In this document: positions 13,096-35,427 of the stretch, in pieces | How positions within the stretch are numbered: the stretch's first letter is position 1 | Layout of the letters: each line of letters starts with the position of its first letter | DNA from: Pseudomonas sp. ADAK18 | Lineage (GTDB): Bacteria > Pseudomonadota > Gammaproteobacteria > Pseudomonadales > Pseudomonadaceae | Reading direction: 5' to 3' | DNA: 64,000 nucleotides | Assembly: GCF_012935695.1 (NCBI RefSeq) | Contig: NZ_CP052859.1 | Coordinates: 2,025,001-2,089,000 of the forward strand | Program-made: the position numbers and the translations under genes | The notes under the pieces: generated by a model | What the model was told of the DNA's origin: nothing | Database searches by the model: none | Seen by the model: only the letters and a program-made list of their open reading frames with translations

Positions 13096-13419
13096 GGACG
13101 GTTGTCCTAAGGTGAGCGGATATACCTGATACAGCTCAATTAAGGTTGAACTCGGTCCCTGTGGCGAGCGGGCTTGCCCGCGTTGGGTCGCGAAGCGATC
13201 CTGATAAAGTGATTGCGGTCTACCGGAAAGAACTCAGAGACCTTCTCGGGGCTGCTACGCAGCCCAACGGGAGCAAGCTCCCTCGCCACAGGTTAATTAT
13301 TGCACGCTCTATTTCATTAACTGGCCGACGTTAGGGCTGGCCCGCCGACCCGATTTAAAAACCGCTGGATCAGGCTGCTCACTTCATCCGGGGTTACCCG
13401 GTGTGATAACGCCGGGTTG
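13096..13419. other. Gene-free interval of 324 bp
   Basis: It holds the REPIN at 13158-13292 and otherwise no credible gene. Short open frames here translate repeat arms or run antisense to the following gene. No strong terminator with a T-run is seen directly after the MHS transporter, so the palindrome may serve as the 3' end structure. Confidence 0.6.
13158..13292. repeat. REPIN-type palindrome after MHS transporter
   Basis: The left arm CCTGTGGCGAGCGGGCTTGC pairs with the right arm ending CTCCCTCGCCACAGG. The two arms carry different variants of the core (GCGGGCTTGCCCGC versus GGGAGCAAGCTCCC), so it is a hybrid of the forms at 3201 and 30981. Confidence 0.85.
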
Positions 13420-27643: not shown

Positions 27644-28531
27644 ATGAACCCTTTCGAAGACATGCGCCTGTTCTGCCAGGTCATGGAGTCCGGCAGTTTC
27701 ACCGCCGCCGCCGAGCAATTGGGCCTGTCCAAACAGTTCGTCAGCCGCCGTCTTATCCAGCTGGAAGACCGTCTGGGTGTGCGTCTGCTCAATCGGTCCA
27801 CCCGCCGTCTGGATGTCACGCCACTGGGGCAGAGTTACTACGAATCGGCCCTGCGCCTGCTCAGCGAGGTCGAGCAAGTGGAGCAGGGCATTGCCGGGCA
27901 AAACAGTGAGGCCCGGGGCACGATACGTCTGAGTGCGCCCTTGTCCTTTGCCATGGCCCACTTGGGCAGCCTGCTGCCGCTGTTCCTGCAACGGCATCCC
28001 CACGTCTCGGTGGAAGTGGACTTGAGCGACCGCCCGGTGGACCTGATCAGCGAAGGCTACGACCTGGTGTTGCGCATTGGCACCCTGGAAGACTCCACCC
28101 TGATTGCGCGTCGCATTGCCAGCGTCCAGCGTGTGTACTGCGCCAGCCCGGATTATCTGGCTGCTTATGGCGCACCCCTCACACCCGAAGACCTCGCCCA
28201 TCACCAATGCCTGCCTTATGGCCATGGTCGCCAGGTGCAATGGCGTTTCCAGGCCAAGGGTAAACCGCTGACGCTGAATGTGAGCGGGCGCATGCGGGTC
28301 AACAACGGTGAGTTGCTGCGCGATGCCGCCGTCGCGGGCTTGGGCATTACGTATTTACCGACGTTTATCGTCGCCCAGGCGCTGGAGCAAGGGCAGTTGG
28401 TCAGGGTGCTGGAGGACTTTGCCCCTGAGCCCCTAACCCTATCGGCGGTGTATCCCCAGCATCGGCAAAGCTCACGGCCGGTGCAGGCGTTGGTGGAGTA
28501 CCTGCGGGAAAGCCTGGCGGGCGGCTGCTGA
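27644..28531 (+). CDS. LysR-family regulator
   Basis: This 295-residue LTTR is of the large AaeR/DmlR-like group. The HTH spans about 3-62 (EDMRLFCQVMESGSFTAAAE, then RLIQLEDRLGVRLLNRSTRR). The effector domain includes GTIRLSAPLSFAMAHLGSLL and LSDRPVDLISEGYDLVLRIG. It is convergent with the TonB-receptor operon (8 bp between ends) and follows the amidohydrolase gene on the same strand, so it has no clear divergent target. Confidence 0.9.
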   Translation: MNPFEDMRLFCQVMESGSFTAAAEQLGLSKQFVSRRLIQLEDRLGVRLLNRSTRRLDVTPLGQSYYESALRLLSEVEQVEQGIAGQNSEARGTIRLSAPLSFAMAHLGSLLPLFLQRHPHVSVEVDLSDRPVDLISEGYDLVLRIGTLEDSTLIARRIASVQRVYCASPDYLAAYGAPLTPEDLAHHQCLPYGHGRQVQWRFQAKGKPLTLNVSGRMRVNNGELLRDAAVAGLGITYLPTFIVAQALEQGQLVRVLEDFAPEPLTLSAVYPQHRQSSRPVQALVEYLRESLAGGC

Positions 28532-28539
28532 ACCGATGG

Positions 28540-31152
28540 CTAAAACGCATATTGCACGCGACTGTAGTAATACCCCCCGGTAAACCCGAACGGCGAATAA
28601 CTGCCCCAGTTATCGCCAAACGATGAGTTCTTCACGCCGATGTGATCCGGGTATTTATCGAACAGGTTCTGTGCCCCGACGGCCACCGTCAGTTGCTTGG
28701 TCAGCGCATAGGCCACGTCCAGGTCGGTGATCCACTTGGCCGAATATTCGCGGTCCAGGCTCGGGTCGCTGGAGCTGTTGACCTCGGTGTAGGTGCCGTA
28801 GCGGGTCAAGCGCAGGTTGACGTCGAAGTCATGGATGGCCCAGTCGGCGGAGAAGATCATCTTGCTGCTGGGGGAGGTCTTGGTAATCAGCGCGCGGGAC
28901 TGGCGCCCCAGCAGTTGGAAGTCTCCCAGGGCACTGAGTTGCGCCGGGGTGTCGTTGACGCTGAGGATTTGCGTGTGGTTGTAGTTCAGCGCGGCGGTCC
29001 ACTTGACCACGCCGTAGCGGTCGAGGTTCTGCCGGTAGTTGCCCACCACATCCACCCCTGAAGTGCGGGTGTTGGCGCCGTTGGTGAAGTACTGCGCGCC
29101 GGCAGTAGCCGGTACGCCGATGCTGTCCAGCAGGGCGGCGACGCCGGGTCCCTGGAAGCGCTCGCTGAGCACCAGGCGATCCCGCAGGTTGATCACGTAG
29201 CCGTCCACCGTCAGGCTCAGGTCATCGCTGGGGGTCAAGGCGAAACCCAGGCTGAAGTTGGTACTGCGCTCGGGTTTCAGCGACTTGGCACCCAGGGCCT
29301 GGGCGCCGGCCGAATCCACCGGCAGGATCACGTAGTTATAGGATTGGTACACGCCGTTGATGGTGTCAAAACCGGTGGAACGTGCGGTGAAGATCTCGTT
29401 GGCCAGGGACGGCGCGCGAAAGCCATTGCTGAGGGTGCCGCGCACCGAGAACAGCGGGTTGAATGCATAGCGGGTGCTGAGCTTGCCGCTGCGGGTACCG
29501 CCGACGCCTTCGTTGTAATGCTCATAGCGCCCGGCGACGCCGACGTACCATTGTTCGGTGGGGTAAAACCCCAGGTCGATGTAGCTGGCAACGCTGTTGC
29601 GGCTGATTTTCTGCGCGTCTTGTGGGGTGATGCCATTGGTGACCTGGGCGCCTGGATCGGGGCGTTGCCCGGCCCGTGGATGGCCTTCGGGAAACACGTA
29701 GCCGCCATCGATATAGGAGGCCTCGGAGCCCGCACGGGTCTCGTAGCTTTCCCGCCGATGCTCGAAGCCGAAGGCCACGTCCAACGGTTTGGCCAGGCCC
29801 ACTTCATAGCTGTTTTTAAGGTCCAGGTTGCTGGTCAACTGGTCGGCGATGTAGATGCCGGAGGTGAACTTGTTAGGGGTGTTTTCGCCCAGGGATGGGT
29901 TCTGGTTGTCGTAGGTGCGTTGCTTAGCATAGTTGCGCCCATAGGTGCTGCTCAAGTCCCAGGCCCAGCCGCCCAGGTCATCGCCCTTGGCGCCGAAAGC
30001 CGATTGGAAGTCGGTCTCGTTGACCAGCCAGTACGGGCTGTAGCCGTCGGGGTAACCCTTGGGTCCGGTGGTGATGGTGTTGCGCCCGTTGGGCAAGCGG
30101 AAGTTCTGGCCATCGTTGTTCTCGCGGGTGGCGAGGGTGGAAAACGAGTAGAGCGTCAGGTTGTCATTCAGCGGCAGGTCGAGGTTATAGGCGAAGTCGG
30201 CCAATTGGCTGCGGGGCGCACCGTAGCCTTTGTAGGTGTGGTGGCTGGCCTCGGCCTCACGCGGGTCTGGCGAGCCGTCGGCCAACGGGTAGTAATGGTT
30301 GCTGTAGCCGTTGCTGCCCGCCTTGTTGTCCCGCTCCTGATAGCGGGTGTCGAGGGACACGTTGAGTACGCCGGCTTCACCCACCTGGAACCCATAATTC
30401 AACGCCTCCTGGCCGGTGCCACGCTTGCCGTCGTAGTTCTGCCCCAGGGTGGTGTCGGAACTGCCGCCGGTGGTTTGTTTGAGGATGATGTTGATCACCC
30501 CGGAGATCGCGTCCGAACCGTACTGCGCCGCCGCGCCGTCGCGCAGCACTTCGATATGGTCAATGGCGGCCACCGGGATCAGGTCCAGGTCACTGGGGGC
30601 TGCGCCGCTGTTGATGCCGTTGATATTCAAGGTGGCGCTGGTGTGCCGGCGCTTGCCGTTGACCAGTACCAGCACATGGGACGCCGTCAGGCCGCGCAGC
30701 GTGGCCGAGCGCACCACGCCGCTGGCGTCCCAGCCGGCGCGGTCCGGCAGGTTGAACGAAGGGATGAGCTTTCCCAGGGCTTCCAGCAGGCTCGGCTTAC
30801 CCACCGCCCGCAACTGAGCGGCGCTGATCACATCGATGGGCGTGGGGCTGGTGGTGACGGTGCGTTGCTCGGCGCCACGGTTACCGGTGACCACCACGGT
30901 GTCGAGGGTAGGGGAGCGGTCTTCGGCGGATTCGACGCCGAAGGAAGCCAGGCCGCACGCCAGGGAGAGCGGCAGCCATGTGTGGCGAGGGAGCTTGCTC
31001 CCGTTGGGGCGCGAAGCGGCCCTGAAACTTGGCATCGTGCGCCTGAAAAATCGGGACGGCGCTATTGGGGCTGCTACGCAGCCCAACGGGAGCAAGCTCC
31101 CTCGCCACAGGGTATTGGCCAACCGGGCAACCTTGTGTAAGTGCTTGTGCAT
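28540..31152 (-). CDS. TonB-dependent outer-membrane receptor with REPIN-interrupted signal peptide
   Basis: This is an 870-residue TonB receptor. The plug includes a TonB-box-like TLDTVVVTGNRGAEQ, then DVISAAQLRAVGKPSLLEAL and IEVLRDGAAAQYGSDAISGV. The beta barrel ends in YYYSRVQYAF with a terminal Phe. The start at 31152 has AAGGAG upstream. Residues 16-58 are the translation of a 129-bp REPIN; removing it leaves an ordinary signal peptide (MHKHLHKVARLANT, then PWLPLSLACGLASFG). An internal ATG at 31035 within the repeat could also start translation. It is the last gene of the amine oxidase operon. Confidence 0.88.
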   Translation of the reverse strand: MHKHLHKVARLANTLWRGSLLPLGCVAAPIAPSRFFRRTMPSFRAASRPNGSKLPRHTWLPLSLACGLASFGVESAEDRSPTLDTVVVTGNRGAEQRTVTTSPTPIDVISAAQLRAVGKPSLLEALGKLIPSFNLPDRAGWDASGVVRSATLRGLTASHVLVLVNGKRRHTSATLNINGINSGAAPSDLDLIPVAAIDHIEVLRDGAAAQYGSDAISGVINIILKQTTGGSSDTTLGQNYDGKRGTGQEALNYGFQVGEAGVLNVSLDTRYQERDNKAGSNGYSNHYYPLADGSPDPREAEASHHTYKGYGAPRSQLADFAYNLDLPLNDNLTLYSFSTLATRENNDGQNFRLPNGRNTITTGPKGYPDGYSPYWLVNETDFQSAFGAKGDDLGGWAWDLSSTYGRNYAKQRTYDNQNPSLGENTPNKFTSGIYIADQLTSNLDLKNSYEVGLAKPLDVAFGFEHRRESYETRAGSEASYIDGGYVFPEGHPRAGQRPDPGAQVTNGITPQDAQKISRNSVASYIDLGFYPTEQWYVGVAGRYEHYNEGVGGTRSGKLSTRYAFNPLFSVRGTLSNGFRAPSLANEIFTARSTGFDTINGVYQSYNYVILPVDSAGAQALGAKSLKPERSTNFSLGFALTPSDDLSLTVDGYVINLRDRLVLSERFQGPGVAALLDSIGVPATAGAQYFTNGANTRTSGVDVVGNYRQNLDRYGVVKWTAALNYNHTQILSVNDTPAQLSALGDFQLLGRQSRALITKTSPSSKMIFSADWAIHDFDVNLRLTRYGTYTEVNSSSDPSLDREYSAKWITDLDVAYALTKQLTVAVGAQNLFDKYPDHIGVKNSSFGDNWGSYSPFGFTGGYYYSRVQYAF
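30981..31109. repeat. 129-bp REPIN inserted in frame in a signal-peptide coding region
   Basis: The ends are TGTGGCGAGG and CCTCGCCACA, with arms of the same family as 3201-3335 and 13158-13292. It lies wholly inside the start region of the TonB receptor gene. Its length is 43 codons, so the reading frame is kept. Read on the minus strand it contains no stop codon in the receptor frame. Confidence 0.9.
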
Positions 31153-31188
31153 GAGAGTGAAGCTCCTTGATCTCGGGGGAGTCCTGAA

Positions 31189-31680
31189 TCACCGCTTGCG
31201 CGCGGCAACGGCCTCGATTTCCACCAGCCCACCGGGCAGCGGCAGCGCAACCACTTGAACGGCGGTGCGGGCTGGCTTTTTCGGTTGCTCGGCGCTGCCG
31301 AAGAAGGGTGTGTAGCCTTCCTGCAAACCGGAGAAATCGAGCTTGCCGCCCTTGCTCGGGTCGCCCACCAGGAATACCCGCAGTTGCACCACGTCACCCA
31401 AATCCAGGCCCTGGCTTTTCAGCACGCTTGTGAGTTTTTTGAGGATCGACGTGGTTTGGGTCGCGGTATCGCCATAGGCGGCGAACGAGTCCTTGGGGGC
31501 TTTCGGATCGTGCAAGTCAGCCAGCAAACCACTGACAAACAGCAGCTCGGTTTGCGGCGGCACCGAAACCGCCAGGGAGATCGGGAAGTTGGAGTTGGGC
31601 AGCGGCACGCGCTTGATCTCATCAGCGTGGGCGGCGAGGGTGGTGGCGGTCATCAGCAATCCTGCGAATAAGGTTTTCAT
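31189..31680 (-). CDS. Exported RidA-family (YjgF/YER057c/UK114) protein
   Basis: This is a 163-residue RidA-type protein with a Sec signal peptide (TLFAGLLMTATTLAAHADE), which is unusual because RidA is normally cytoplasmic. The core reads FPISLAVSVPPQTELLFVSG, then LKKLTSVLKSQGLDLGDVVQ, and ends ARTAVQVVALPLPGGLVEIE. That C-terminal segment holds the family's conserved Arg and Glu positions. RidA proteins hydrolyse reactive imines or enamines. It sits 25 bp after a Tat-type amine oxidase gene, whose product makes imines. Confidence 0.87.
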   Translation of the reverse strand: MKTLFAGLLMTATTLAAHADEIKRVPLPNSNFPISLAVSVPPQTELLFVSGLLADLHDPKAPKDSFAAYGDTATQTTSILKKLTSVLKSQGLDLGDVVQLRVFLVGDPSKGGKLDFSGLQEGYTPFFGSAEQPKKPARTAVQVVALPLPGGLVEIEAVAARKR

Positions 31681-31705
31681 AAGGTCAGTCCGTAGTGAGA
31701 AAAGA

Positions 31706-33280
31706 TCAGGCAGCAACGCCCGGTTGTTGGCGTTCGGCATGGCGACCGATCAGCGAGACGATGCGCCGTGCCGAATCGGCGGCGCTGTTCTGCCAGATGC
31801 CGACACCGCCATGGGCGAGGGCGTCGCTGGCCAGGTACGTACGGCCCTGGGGCTCGTTGAGAATGCGATAGGCGCTTTCGCCCACCTCGTCGTTGACGAT
31901 CCAGGGACCTTTGCTGAAGCTGACTTTTGCCCAGTTGATGGCCACCGGTTTTTGCAGCTTGGCGCTGTGGCCGGGGTGCAGCAGTTCCACGGCCTGGCGT
32001 GAGGAGGCGAACTGTTCGGCAAGGGATTTTTTGCTGAAGGCCACGGCGGACTCGCTGGTGTTGTAGGCCGCCACCAGAATCCCCTGGGCGCTGTTGAGTC
32101 GGTCACTGGGGTACCACAGGCCTTTGACTTCATGGTCGAGGTACGACAGGCCGCCGTAGATGTTGAAGTCGCTTTCCCAGAAGCGCGGTGACTGCCAGGC
32201 CACCTTGTTGGCCTGGTCGCTCTGTGCGGTCTGGATCGCCTGCTTGAACGGGGTGGTGAAGTTGCTCGGCAGCTTGGCCAGCAACGGCAAGGGTACGGTG
32301 ACGATGGCGTAGTCGGCGCTCAGGGTCTGGGTTTTGCCGCTGATACGGTCGCGGTAGGTGATGCGGCTGCCAAGCTCGCCCGTCTGGATATCGCTGACTT
32401 CGGCGTTGAAGCGCACGGCATCCTTGAGGTGTTCGTAGAAGGCGTAGGGAATGCGGTCCATGCCGCCCACCGGTTGGAACATGGTCGATGAAAACTCCGG
32501 GATTTCATCGAACACCAGCGCGCCCCACAGTTTGGGATTGAGCAAGGTTTGCAGCGCCAGCGGTGCCCGGGTTACCCCGGTTTGATCGCCGGCACCAGGG
32601 ATGCGGGTGTAGCCGGAGCGCACCGAGCCCTTGTATTGCAGGTCGCTGTTGAGGTCGCCATACACCTTGAGGAAATTGAGCAGCGCCTTGCGGTCGTCAA
32701 CGTTCAAATCCTGATCCAGGGCCTTGCGGCTGACGGTGCGTGCCAGCAGTTCCGAGAGCTGCCCGCGGGTATCGTTGACCGCCTGGCGCAACTGAAACGC
32801 CGGTTGCTGTGTATTCGGCAGGGCCAAGGCGTTGCGGCTGCTGTTGACCAACACTTGCAGCTCCACGCCCAGCTCGCGGCAGTAGCCGAGGAGAGTCTGG
32901 TGATGGCTGGGAATACGCGCGGGGCCGGCGTTGAAGAACTGCCCGTCATCGAAGTCGACGGTTTGGCTGACGCCGTCGTCGAAGTCGACTTTACTGCCAC
33001 GGCGCAGGGTCCAGTTGCGGCCACCGACGCGATCACGAGCTTCCAGGATGGTCACGTTGAAACCGGCTTTGCGTAGCTCATAGGCGCTGACCAGTCCGGA
33101 AATCCCGGCGCCGACCACCACCACGTTTTTGCCTTTGCCGGTGCTGCCCAATTGCAGCGGGGTGAAGCTCGACGCCACGGCCTGGGGCGTCAACCCCAAT
33201 GCACCGAGGGCGCTGACGGCGGCGGAATAGCCGCCCACGGCGGCAATACGGGAAATCAATTCCCTGCGGGTAAAAGCCAT
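31706..33280 (-). CDS. Flavin monoamine oxidase with twin-arginine signal
   Basis: This is a 524-residue FAD-dependent amine oxidase. Residues 1-36 look like a Tat signal (TRRELISRIAAVGG, then ALGALGLTPQAVA). The FAD-binding motif is VVVVGAGISGLVSAYELRKA, with GAGISG at 57-62 and Glu at its end (ILEARDRVGGRNW). The C-terminal FAD motif region is RTYLASDALAHGGVGIWQNS. It oxidises an amine or amino acid to an imine with H2O2 release, probably in the periplasm. It lies 26 bp after a TonB receptor gene and 25 bp before exported RidA. Confidence 0.9.
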   Translation of the reverse strand: MAFTRRELISRIAAVGGYSAAVSALGALGLTPQAVASSFTPLQLGSTGKGKNVVVVGAGISGLVSAYELRKAGFNVTILEARDRVGGRNWTLRRGSKVDFDDGVSQTVDFDDGQFFNAGPARIPSHHQTLLGYCRELGVELQVLVNSSRNALALPNTQQPAFQLRQAVNDTRGQLSELLARTVSRKALDQDLNVDDRKALLNFLKVYGDLNSDLQYKGSVRSGYTRIPGAGDQTGVTRAPLALQTLLNPKLWGALVFDEIPEFSSTMFQPVGGMDRIPYAFYEHLKDAVRFNAEVSDIQTGELGSRITYRDRISGKTQTLSADYAIVTVPLPLLAKLPSNFTTPFKQAIQTAQSDQANKVAWQSPRFWESDFNIYGGLSYLDHEVKGLWYPSDRLNSAQGILVAAYNTSESAVAFSKKSLAEQFASSRQAVELLHPGHSAKLQKPVAINWAKVSFSKGPWIVNDEVGESAYRILNEPQGRTYLASDALAHGGVGIWQNSAADSARRIVSLIGRHAERQQPGVAA

Positions 33281-33306
33281 GATTCGCTCCTTGATGTAGC
33301 GAGGGG

Positions 33307-35427
33307 TTAGAGGTCGTAGCGCACGGATAACAAGAGGGTTCGCGGGTCGTTGATCGAGTAGTAGCGCGCACCGCTGGAAGGCACATAGCCCACCGATTGC
33401 GGGTAGGCGCGGTCCAGCAGGTTTTTCACCGACAGCGTGGTGGTCCAGTGGCCGTCGCCGGAGAGGTAGCTGGTGTGAGCGTTCCAGAAGGTCTGGGTAG
33501 GAATTTCCTGGATATCGTCGTTCAGCGCATTGGCGTAGGACTTGGTCTGGAACTGCGCATCGGTGCCTGCCAGCAAGGTGCCGGGCAGCCCGATGGGCAC
33601 GGTGTAGTTGAGGCCGACACTGGCGTTCCAGCGCGGTGAAAACACCAGCTGTTTGCCGTTGGCATCCACCCCGGCGCCGGCGGCGTTCTGAAAGTCGTCG
33701 TACTGGCTTTGCAAGTAGCCGAGATTGGCCGTCAGTTGCAGGTCGCGGCTCAGGGCGGTGAGGGTTTCCACTTCGACGCCATACGTGTGGGCCTGGCCGA
33801 CATTGGTGCGCAGGCTGACCCCCAGCGCCGGGTCATAGGCGTTGGTTTGCAGGTCTTTGTAGTCGTTGTAGAACAGCGCGACATTGGCCCGCAGGCGCTG
33901 GTCGAAGAAGTCGCCCTTGAGCCCGGTTTCCCAGGTGGTTACGTCTTCCGGGGAGAACGCCTGTTCGGCCGCGGCGCGGGTGGGGGCGCGGTTGTCGTAG
34001 CCGCCGGCCTTGAAGCCCTTGGCGACGTAGGCGTATTGATTCAGGTATGGGGTCCAGGCGTATTCGAAGCCGATTTTCGGGCTGGTGGACTGCCAGGACT
34101 TGCTCGATTCGGCGCTGAAGTTGGTGCCGGTGATTTGCCGGTCGGTGGTGATCGCGTAGTTGGTGAAGTCGAAATTCTTGTGCTCGCGGGTAAAGCGCAG
34201 CCCGGCGATCAGCGACAATTGTGCGGTCAGTTTGTAGGTGCCCTGGCCATACAAGGCGTAGCTTTCGGTGTTGGTGGTGCTGTATTGGCCTTGGCCGATC
34301 ACCTGGTTGCGCGCGACGGAATACGTGAGGTTGTCGCGGTCGGCGTCGAACTTCTCGCGGTACAGGTACAGGCCGGTGCTGAAACTGAAATCGTCGTAGT
34401 CGCCGTTGAGCTGGAACTCCTGGGTGGCGTAGTTCTGTTGGTAAAGAATCAGGTTGTTCTGGATCAGCGCGGCTTGCCCGGAGTTGTCATAGTCCACCGG
34501 CTGATGGAAGGCCGACCAGGCGCTGACCGACTTGAAATTCAGGTGATCGTCGATGGCGTAGATCGCCCGCAGCACCGAGCTGCCTTGATCGAGGCGGTTT
34601 TTCGGGTTGAGGCTGCTGTAGCTCTTGAACTTGTCGAAGTGGCCGTTGGCATCAAACGGGGTATAGCTGGTGGTGTCGCCCCGGTCGAAGGTGCCGGCCA
34701 GGGTCAGTTGTACATCCCACGGTGAGTCCACGGGGTTGTAGCGCAGCTTGCCGCGATAGGACTGGATGTCGACGTTGTTCACGTCCTTGCCCCGGGTCGG
34801 ATCGGAAACGGTGCCATCGCGGGTGAGGCGAATGGCCGAAAAGCTGCCGAACAGCGCGTTGTCCACCAGCGGCCCGCTGATCAGCAGCCGGCCGTTCTGC
34901 GCGTTGTAGTTGCCGGCGCCCAACTCCAGGAAACCACGGGTTTCCTGGGTCGGATCGCGGGTGATCACACGGATCGCGCCGGCGCTGCTGTTGCGTCCGT
35001 ACAACGTGCCTTGAGGTCCACGCAGGACTTCGACGCGTTCGACATCGTTGAAATCGAGCATCGAGGAAATGGCGCGGGGGATGTACAGGTCATCGGCATA
35101 CACCGCCACCGCGGATTCCTGGATCGGGTCGGTTTCGCCGATGCCGCGAATCCCGTAGGTCTGGGAGCTGTAGGAGATCGACTGGCGGCTCAGGGACAGG
35201 TTTGGCACCTGGCCGGCAAGGTCGCGCACACTTTTGATCTGCTTGTCTTCCAGGGCCTTTTCGTCGAACGCGGAAATCGCCAGTGGGGTTTTTTGCAGGT
35301 CTTCGCTGCGGTGCTCGGCGGTGACGTTGACCACGGGCAGGGCGGTGTCGTCGGCGTGGGCCGAAAGGCCAAACAGCGCAAGGGAAACGGCCAGTGTCAG
35401 GCGATTGGGTACGAGGGTGTGACTCAT
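33307..35427 (-). CDS. TonB-dependent outer-membrane receptor
   Basis: This is a 706-residue receptor with a clear signal peptide (LTLAVSLALFGLSAHA). The plug includes LPVVNVTAEHRSEDLQKTPL, SYSSQTYGIRGIGETDPIQE and RVEVLRGPQGTLYGRNSSAG. The barrel ends RTLLLSVRYDL, with Leu where Phe is usual. The plug style matches the large iron-complex/substrate TonB receptors found in catabolic clusters. It is the first gene of the four-gene operon with amine oxidase, RidA and a second receptor, so it may import the amine-containing substrate. Confidence 0.9.
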   Translation of the reverse strand: MSHTLVPNRLTLAVSLALFGLSAHADDTALPVVNVTAEHRSEDLQKTPLAISAFDEKALEDKQIKSVRDLAGQVPNLSLSRQSISYSSQTYGIRGIGETDPIQESAVAVYADDLYIPRAISSMLDFNDVERVEVLRGPQGTLYGRNSSAGAIRVITRDPTQETRGFLELGAGNYNAQNGRLLISGPLVDNALFGSFSAIRLTRDGTVSDPTRGKDVNNVDIQSYRGKLRYNPVDSPWDVQLTLAGTFDRGDTTSYTPFDANGHFDKFKSYSSLNPKNRLDQGSSVLRAIYAIDDHLNFKSVSAWSAFHQPVDYDNSGQAALIQNNLILYQQNYATQEFQLNGDYDDFSFSTGLYLYREKFDADRDNLTYSVARNQVIGQGQYSTTNTESYALYGQGTYKLTAQLSLIAGLRFTREHKNFDFTNYAITTDRQITGTNFSAESSKSWQSTSPKIGFEYAWTPYLNQYAYVAKGFKAGGYDNRAPTRAAAEQAFSPEDVTTWETGLKGDFFDQRLRANVALFYNDYKDLQTNAYDPALGVSLRTNVGQAHTYGVEVETLTALSRDLQLTANLGYLQSQYDDFQNAAGAGVDANGKQLVFSPRWNASVGLNYTVPIGLPGTLLAGTDAQFQTKSYANALNDDIQEIPTQTFWNAHTSYLSGDGHWTTTLSVKNLLDRAYPQSVGYVPSSGARYYSINDPRTLLLSVRYDL

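Follow-up and report, generated by a model that had tools for sequence, protein, structure and literature searches.

A REPIN in frame within the signal-peptide region of a Pseudomonas TonB-dependent receptor gene: a probably tolerated and repeated capture

A gene for a TonB-dependent receptor in Pseudomonas sp. ADAK18 carries a 129-bp REPIN in frame, inside the part that encodes its signal peptide. The gene lies in the window, which is the whole stretch of 64,000 nucleotides that was analysed (G000:C1:2025001-2089000, in a genome assembled as a single contig of 6.47 Mb). The repeat is present and open in the receptor frame, orthologues occur in both empty and filled form, and carriers have kept the start signals as well as the receptor body. 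Sequence comparison leads us to regard the repeat as a probable tolerated in-frame capture that lengthens the n-region of the signal peptide and that probably took place twice.

The receptor ORF, at 28540-31152 on the minus strand, comprises 870 codons, and a domain search revealed the Plug and beta-barrel domains. The REPIN occupies codons 15-58, directly before the hydrophobic core WLPLSLACGLASFG; the ORF, the domains and the orthologues thus bear out the initial annotation, which placed it in frame within the signal-peptide coding part. The features of the locus are as follows.

30981-31109, unstranded: REPIN of 129 bp with core GGGAGCTTGCTCCC, inverted arms and a 45-nt spacer.
28540-31152, minus strand: TonB-dependent receptor gene with the REPIN in codons 15-58, from ORF, domains and orthologues.
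31163-31168, minus strand: Shine-Dalgarno (SD) sequence AAGGAG, with equal spacing in four REPIN and four folded empty alleles.
31150-31152, minus strand: usual ATG start, 5' of the REPIN.
31111-31149, minus strand: codons 2-14, HKHLHKVARLANT, with nothing matching in empty alleles beyond the first codons.
31033-31035, minus strand: in-frame ATG in the REPIN spacer (codon 40), a possible secondary start with an anti-SD duplex of -2.5 kcal/mol.
30925-30978, minus strand: hydrophobic core together with the probable cleavage region, WLPLSLACGLASFGVESA, of the signal peptide, similar in empty alleles, with boundaries set by eye.

Between the first receptor codons and the REPIN there are 37 nt that have no counterpart in the empty alleles, so the insertion was not bare and clean. 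Within the window the only match of this left flank is itself. Scoring of 40 of 133 candidates in the genome turned up no second copy of the stretch of codons 2-14, except for nine bases beside one other REPIN. A consensus scan of 30850-31350 found no promoter or terminator at the REPIN. The receptor ends an apparent operon on the minus strand (28540-35427), whose other members, named by reading the ORF translations, are another TonB receptor (33307-35427), a protein resembling flavin amine oxidases (31706-33280) and a RidA-like protein that has a signal peptide (31189-31740). A LysR-type gene, likewise named from its translation, adjoins on the plus strand (27644-28531).

The coordinates, length and termini given to the repeat at the outset proved right. 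Its two arms (30981-31022 and 31068-31109) are 42 nt each, 90% complementary and 45 nt apart. The 129-mer, taken on the plus strand of the window, has a predicted fold of -102.5 kcal/mol against -53.1 +/- 3.7 for its shuffles (z -13.4), none of 200 shuffles folding as well; on the mRNA strand the REPIN with its flanks (321 nt) folds to -155.7 (z -8.0), equalled by none of 100 shuffles. Copies occur in at least 40 places in the same genome (80 BLAST rows; 40 of 198 candidates scored), and the others are 76-83% identical in the better orientation where they align end to end. The 16-mer GAGGGAGCTTGCTCCC, which has 20 exact occurrences in this genome, is the commonest group III REP 16-mer of P. 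fluorescens SBW25 in Table 1 of PMC3116915. Two inverted REPs and a spacer that can form one long hairpin, present in many copies, are what defines a REPIN, and this is what 30981-31109 shows. Given the palindrome, the fold, the copy number and the group III 16-mer, the stretch is a REPIN of the group III type.

Among 39 fetched loci, 31 REPINs, a subset of the copies, could be parsed with at most three mismatches per 22-nt arm end; 27 of them measure 130-133 bp, including 17 of 132 bp. All except the receptor copy lie outside codon-scored ORFs (30/31), which makes it the sole parsed copy inside a gene and the family predominantly extragenic. Long ORFs also cross the REPINs of three other loci (L087, L100 and L079); the codon score places these copies outside genes, and we take the ORFs for shadow frames. 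The view that REPINs are normally extragenic therefore holds for this genome, but in-frame intragenic REPs have already been described (PMC3733652). As for the RAYT transposase raised in the initial annotation, three of four matches in the genome exceed the NF047646 cut-off, and one match (G000:C1:4322496-4322906) has related, non-identical REPINs (TGTGGCGAGCGGGCTTGCCCGC) on both flanks. None of the four RAYT loci that were fetched showed the core GGGAGCTTGCTCCC. The REPIN was presumably mobilised by a RAYT. Elsewhere in the window, a group III REP core with a CCTCGCCACA end lies on the minus strand at 13269-13290 (G000:C1:2038269-2038284), with no exact partner among the nearby matches listed.

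Empty sites were sought among orthologues from a genus sample of 398 genomes (including the close matches of an earlier 298) and from the 31 loci of a pattern scan. This yielded 31 distinct alleles at 83% identity or more, of which 27 lack the REPIN, as judged on translated N-termini, and four carry it. Left out of this count were 18 loci at 59-62% protein identity (L021-L038), eight distant loci of the pattern scan, and L072, whose match spans residues 606-870 only. The carriers are ADAK18 (G000), P. fluorescens ISL-62 (G186) with the same insertion, P. yamanorum IPO3780 (G048) and G261, and in all four the repeat is open in the same phase. It is thus an in-frame repeat in a real gene whose frame is kept, with orthologues that lack it. 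The empty alleles nearest on the tree begin with MHTRPLLLPLSLACG (P. spelaei), MYSRPLLL (G095), MQSRPLLL (G030) and MHSRPLLL (G339). The ordinary signal peptide expected from precise removal of the repeat is the one of none of the 27 empty alleles; the nearest natural alleles are that of P. spelaei and others like it. An assembly artefact was rejected: the genomes of ADAK18 and G261 are single contigs, and the separate assemblies of ISL-62 and IPO3780 have the same two structures. A further search among relatives gave no new carrier (5 of 144 genomes matched, all already found), and plasmid searches gave nothing useful. The extended N-termini, used as protein queries, retrieved no extended receptor among the candidates inspected (5 of 51 and 4 of 488, all weak). 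Ten receptors at 79% identity or more, among the best 120 of 338 rows, are 712-831 aa long; clustering at 90% in the protein search could hide longer forms.

In the second lineage, G048 and G261, a 132-bp REPIN follows codon 10, at about the same place as in ADAK18 and ISL-62 and in the opposite orientation. Next come some five additional tandem units of 18 bp copied from the REP arm end (L012, L014); they encode SKLPRH-like six-residue repeats, are equal in length in both genomes and have a dN/dS of 0.34. Compared with the 30 other REPINs parsed in the ADAK18 genome, all turned to one orientation, the spacer scored better in sense than in complement in 30 of 30 cases for both G048 and G261; for G000 as well as G186 this was so in 1 of 30. 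The junctions of the two types differ on both sides. A receptor-body tree of 22 of the 31 alleles (23 were chosen, one being too short) joins G000 with G186 (97/91) beside P. spelaei, and groups G048 and G261 with G339 and G095. On this tree the presence of the REPIN requires three changes, at least two of them forced by well-supported branches, and a single origin occurs in 0% of 200 bootstrap trees. The REPIN label itself is not clearly clustered, since 89 of 500 shuffles need equally few changes. Two separate insertions, one in the G000/G186 lineage and one in the G048/G261 lineage, would be the likelier history.

The signals of the usual start are retained in the carriers. Spacing from the SD sequence to the ATG is equal in the four REPIN and four empty alleles tested; all of them read AAGGAG except G030, which has AAGGAA. 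In G000 and G186, in-frame ATG, GTG or TTG codons occur at codons 1, 11, 20, 23 and 40, the next not before codon 86; in G048 and G261 they occur at codons 1, 11 and 16, the next not before codon 122. A start 3' of the repeat was rejected, as none of the four alleles has an in-frame ATG, GTG or TTG from the repeat to the hydrophobic core; an exported receptor thus requires that at least part of the repeat be translated. Rare starts such as CTG aside, translation of an exported receptor would have to begin before or inside the REPIN. The proposal that a hairpin at the translation start controls this receptor fared poorly: the stem starts 43 nt past the A of the ATG, and the mean unpaired probability at positions -20 to +15 is 0.54-0.63 when the REPIN is present (four alleles) and 0.49-0.62 when it is absent (four alleles), so predicted folds do not support such control. 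Most likely, the ribosome reads through the repeat from the usual ATG.

Two other histories of the locus have to be weighed against two insertions that are read through from the usual ATG. Both lineages have the gene, the approximate place, the REP core and the reading phase in common, and recombination between inverted arms can flip the spacer of such an element. A single ancestral insertion might accordingly have undergone arm-to-arm inversion in one lineage and been lost, by exchange with empty alleles, in P. spelaei, G095 and perhaps G339. We consider this unlikely, as the flanks are unlike on both sides and the tree asks for several losses, each restoring an xxRPLLLPLS allele. Less likely still is translation from the ATG inside the repeat (31035, codon 40), a start already raised, with its upstream AGG, in the initial annotation, by which the REPIN would provide both the start and the n-region of an ordinary-length signal peptide (MPSFRAASRPNGSKLPRHTWLPLSLACG...), the remainder of the repeat serving as 5' UTR. 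That ATG is indeed in frame with AGG six bases 5', it belongs to the spacer, where the prediction leaves both its SD region (0.67) and the AUG (0.57) partly unpaired, and the n-region produced would be cationic. However, its anti-SD duplex is weak, at -2.5 kcal/mol against -7.7 for the usual ATG, which is still present, and the REPIN of G048 and G261 has no ATG, the TTG codons 11 and 16 at its left end being the sole ATG, GTG or TTG alternatives to the usual start.

The consequences of the insertion for the gene leave room for two further readings. A very stable hairpin is predicted where insertions usually hurt, and the initial annotation had suggested that export may be abolished; the hairpin or the longer n-region would then block expression or export, and the gene would be on its way to a pseudogene. 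The substitution data make this most improbable. Over 766 codons of the receptor body, dN/dS is 0.037 for the pair G048/G261 and 0.039 for the carriers G000 and G186 (dS 0.194), the latter value being close to the 0.036 obtained when G000 is set against P. spelaei, whose allele is empty; judged from these ratios, the body is under strong purifying selection. Nor are there stops or frameshifts, and the N-terminal parts align without gaps over 252 nt (G000/G186) and 360 nt (G048/G261). The low body dN/dS indicates that the gene has been useful since the insertions if these are older than the splits, and as an argument against harm it holds only if the insertion predates the split of G000 and G186. 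The opposite reading, that the captured REPIN is functional as RNA or peptide and is kept by selection, for example through mRNA processing, pausing or tuning of secretion, is compatible with a tolerated capture and has a modest chance of being right. Between G000 and G186 the REPIN differs by one change in 129 bp, which is synonymous (34.7 synonymous and 97.3 nonsynonymous sites), against 110 changes in 2358 bp of the body, and none of 52 overlapping body windows of 129 bp has so few. If 132 unconstrained sites had changed at the body's synonymous rate of 0.171 per site, this dip would have a P of about 5e-10; it reaches, however, only 0.015 in a binomial comparison with mean body divergence, and 0.012 on synonymous sites alone. 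In G048 and G261 the arms have changed less than the spacer (2/84 against 15/48; Fisher P 4e-6). These patterns fit selection on the hairpin or the peptide, but a recent recombination tract or conversion of the arms by other REPINs would look alike. Moreover, the two arm changes fall at facing positions and leave U-G in one genome and C-A in the other, which gives no compensatory support, the predicted accessibility of the start site is unaltered, and the encoded peptide looks little constrained in this pair because the dN/dS of its REPIN codons is 0.88.

A tolerated capture read through from the usual ATG enables us to propose a putative course of events. Initially, a RAYT would have brought a group III REPIN into the 5' end of this gene, the palindrome being free of stops in the phase used (LWRGSLLPLG...NGSKLPRH) and its length a multiple of three. 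The usual SD sequence and ATG would still be used, the ribosome passing through the hairpin, and 43 REPIN-encoded residues would be added to the n-region, leaving it cationic, before the kept hydrophobic core; relative to P. spelaei the N-terminal extension would total 52 residues. Afterwards, the extension would be removed with the signal peptide, leaving the mature receptor as it was and thereby making the insertion tolerable. Cleavage and export would proceed, with a neutral or near-neutral effect of the extension. In the sister lineage a like insertion, most likely independent, would have been followed by amplification of an arm end in 18-bp, or six-residue, steps. The phase used is a permissive one for this family: 23 of 62 element-by-orientation combinations of REPINs in the ADAK18 genome are open and frame-keeping in it, compared with 17 of 124 in the two remaining phases together (40 of 186 over all phases), and the ends of the palindrome read similarly in either orientation (LWRGSLLPLG...GSKLPRH). 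The cationic n-region varies among relatives, and the insertion may be tolerable because a peptide placed before the core merely lengthens a part that is already variable. As a point against this course, a stem of 28 pairs directly 3' of the start might delay the ribosome or make the mRNA a target of cleavage. More speculatively, and with considerable doubt, REPINs may be ready-made, frame-keeping cationic extensions of signal peptides. They would have entered the n-region of one receptor on two or more occasions, one lineage would have extended its copy by six-residue units taken from the REP arm, and selection acting on the hairpin, the peptide or both would maintain the captured repeat today.

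Long n-regions before an ordinary hydrophobic core are also found in the extended signal peptide regions of autotransporters. There they form a conserved class of motif, whereas the receptor extension is a captured repeat, and the two are likened by description. Among the papers that one open-licence library listed for REPs associated with signal peptides, or for long n-regions of TonB receptors, none was relevant. With the group III REPINs of SBW25, as presented in PMC3116915, the ADAK18 element shares the 16-mer, the inverted doublet able to form a hairpin, the many copies and the presence of RAYTs in the genome; those REPINs are defined there in extragenic space, whereas the ADAK18 copy is intragenic and in frame. 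Closer to the receptor REPIN are the GTAG/CGTC REPs of PMC3733652, which in the passages concerned are read as parts of genes, some of them N-terminal. The same passages allow that many N-terminal cases, including those of P. putida, may be extragenic through wrongly assigned starts; in the receptor, unlike these cases, the usual start lies upstream, and empty and filled orthologues are compared. The Rickettsia palindromic elements (RPEs), according to parts of PMC10969869 and PMC3733652, are palindromes of about 150 bp that lie in frame in genes and encode peptides, and proteins with an N-terminal RPE-1 are expressed (PMC3733652). The resemblance is again one of description; the host differs, and nearly half of the R. 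conorii RPEs lie in genes by the review PMC10969869, against one of 31 parsed REPINs here.

The case contributes a locus where the doubt about wrong starts is met by sequence, with alleles that are empty, shared and probably separately filled; the upstream SD sequence and ATG, the lack of an ATG, GTG or TTG between repeat and core, and the empty and filled orthologues largely close that escape. Provided the usual ATG is used, with 58 and 94 residues before the core in the two lineages, the locus would offer a natural test of how far an n-region can be stretched. It would equally be one of ribosome read-through of a hairpin predicted at about -100 kcal/mol, and would illustrate how a mobile repeat from non-coding DNA can be turned into part of a protein-coding gene.

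Some minor observations concern REPIN-like sequences elsewhere. The weak matches in the protein searches are unrelated proteins with REPIN-like peptides (E 0.046-1.3 in the search that gave 5 of 51). Among P0001-P0003, a PF02366 protein and a chemotaxis protein have such a peptide N-terminally, a position in which the repeat may precede the true start; in a CobN fragment it is found close to the C-terminus. In the gap 5' of the receptor, G095 has a different REPIN of the AGGAGCGAGCTTGCTCGCGAAG type (L011) and G030 a REP-like CCTCGCCACA scrap (L013); as both lie at the same junction, the 5' junction of the receptor may be a hot spot of insertion.
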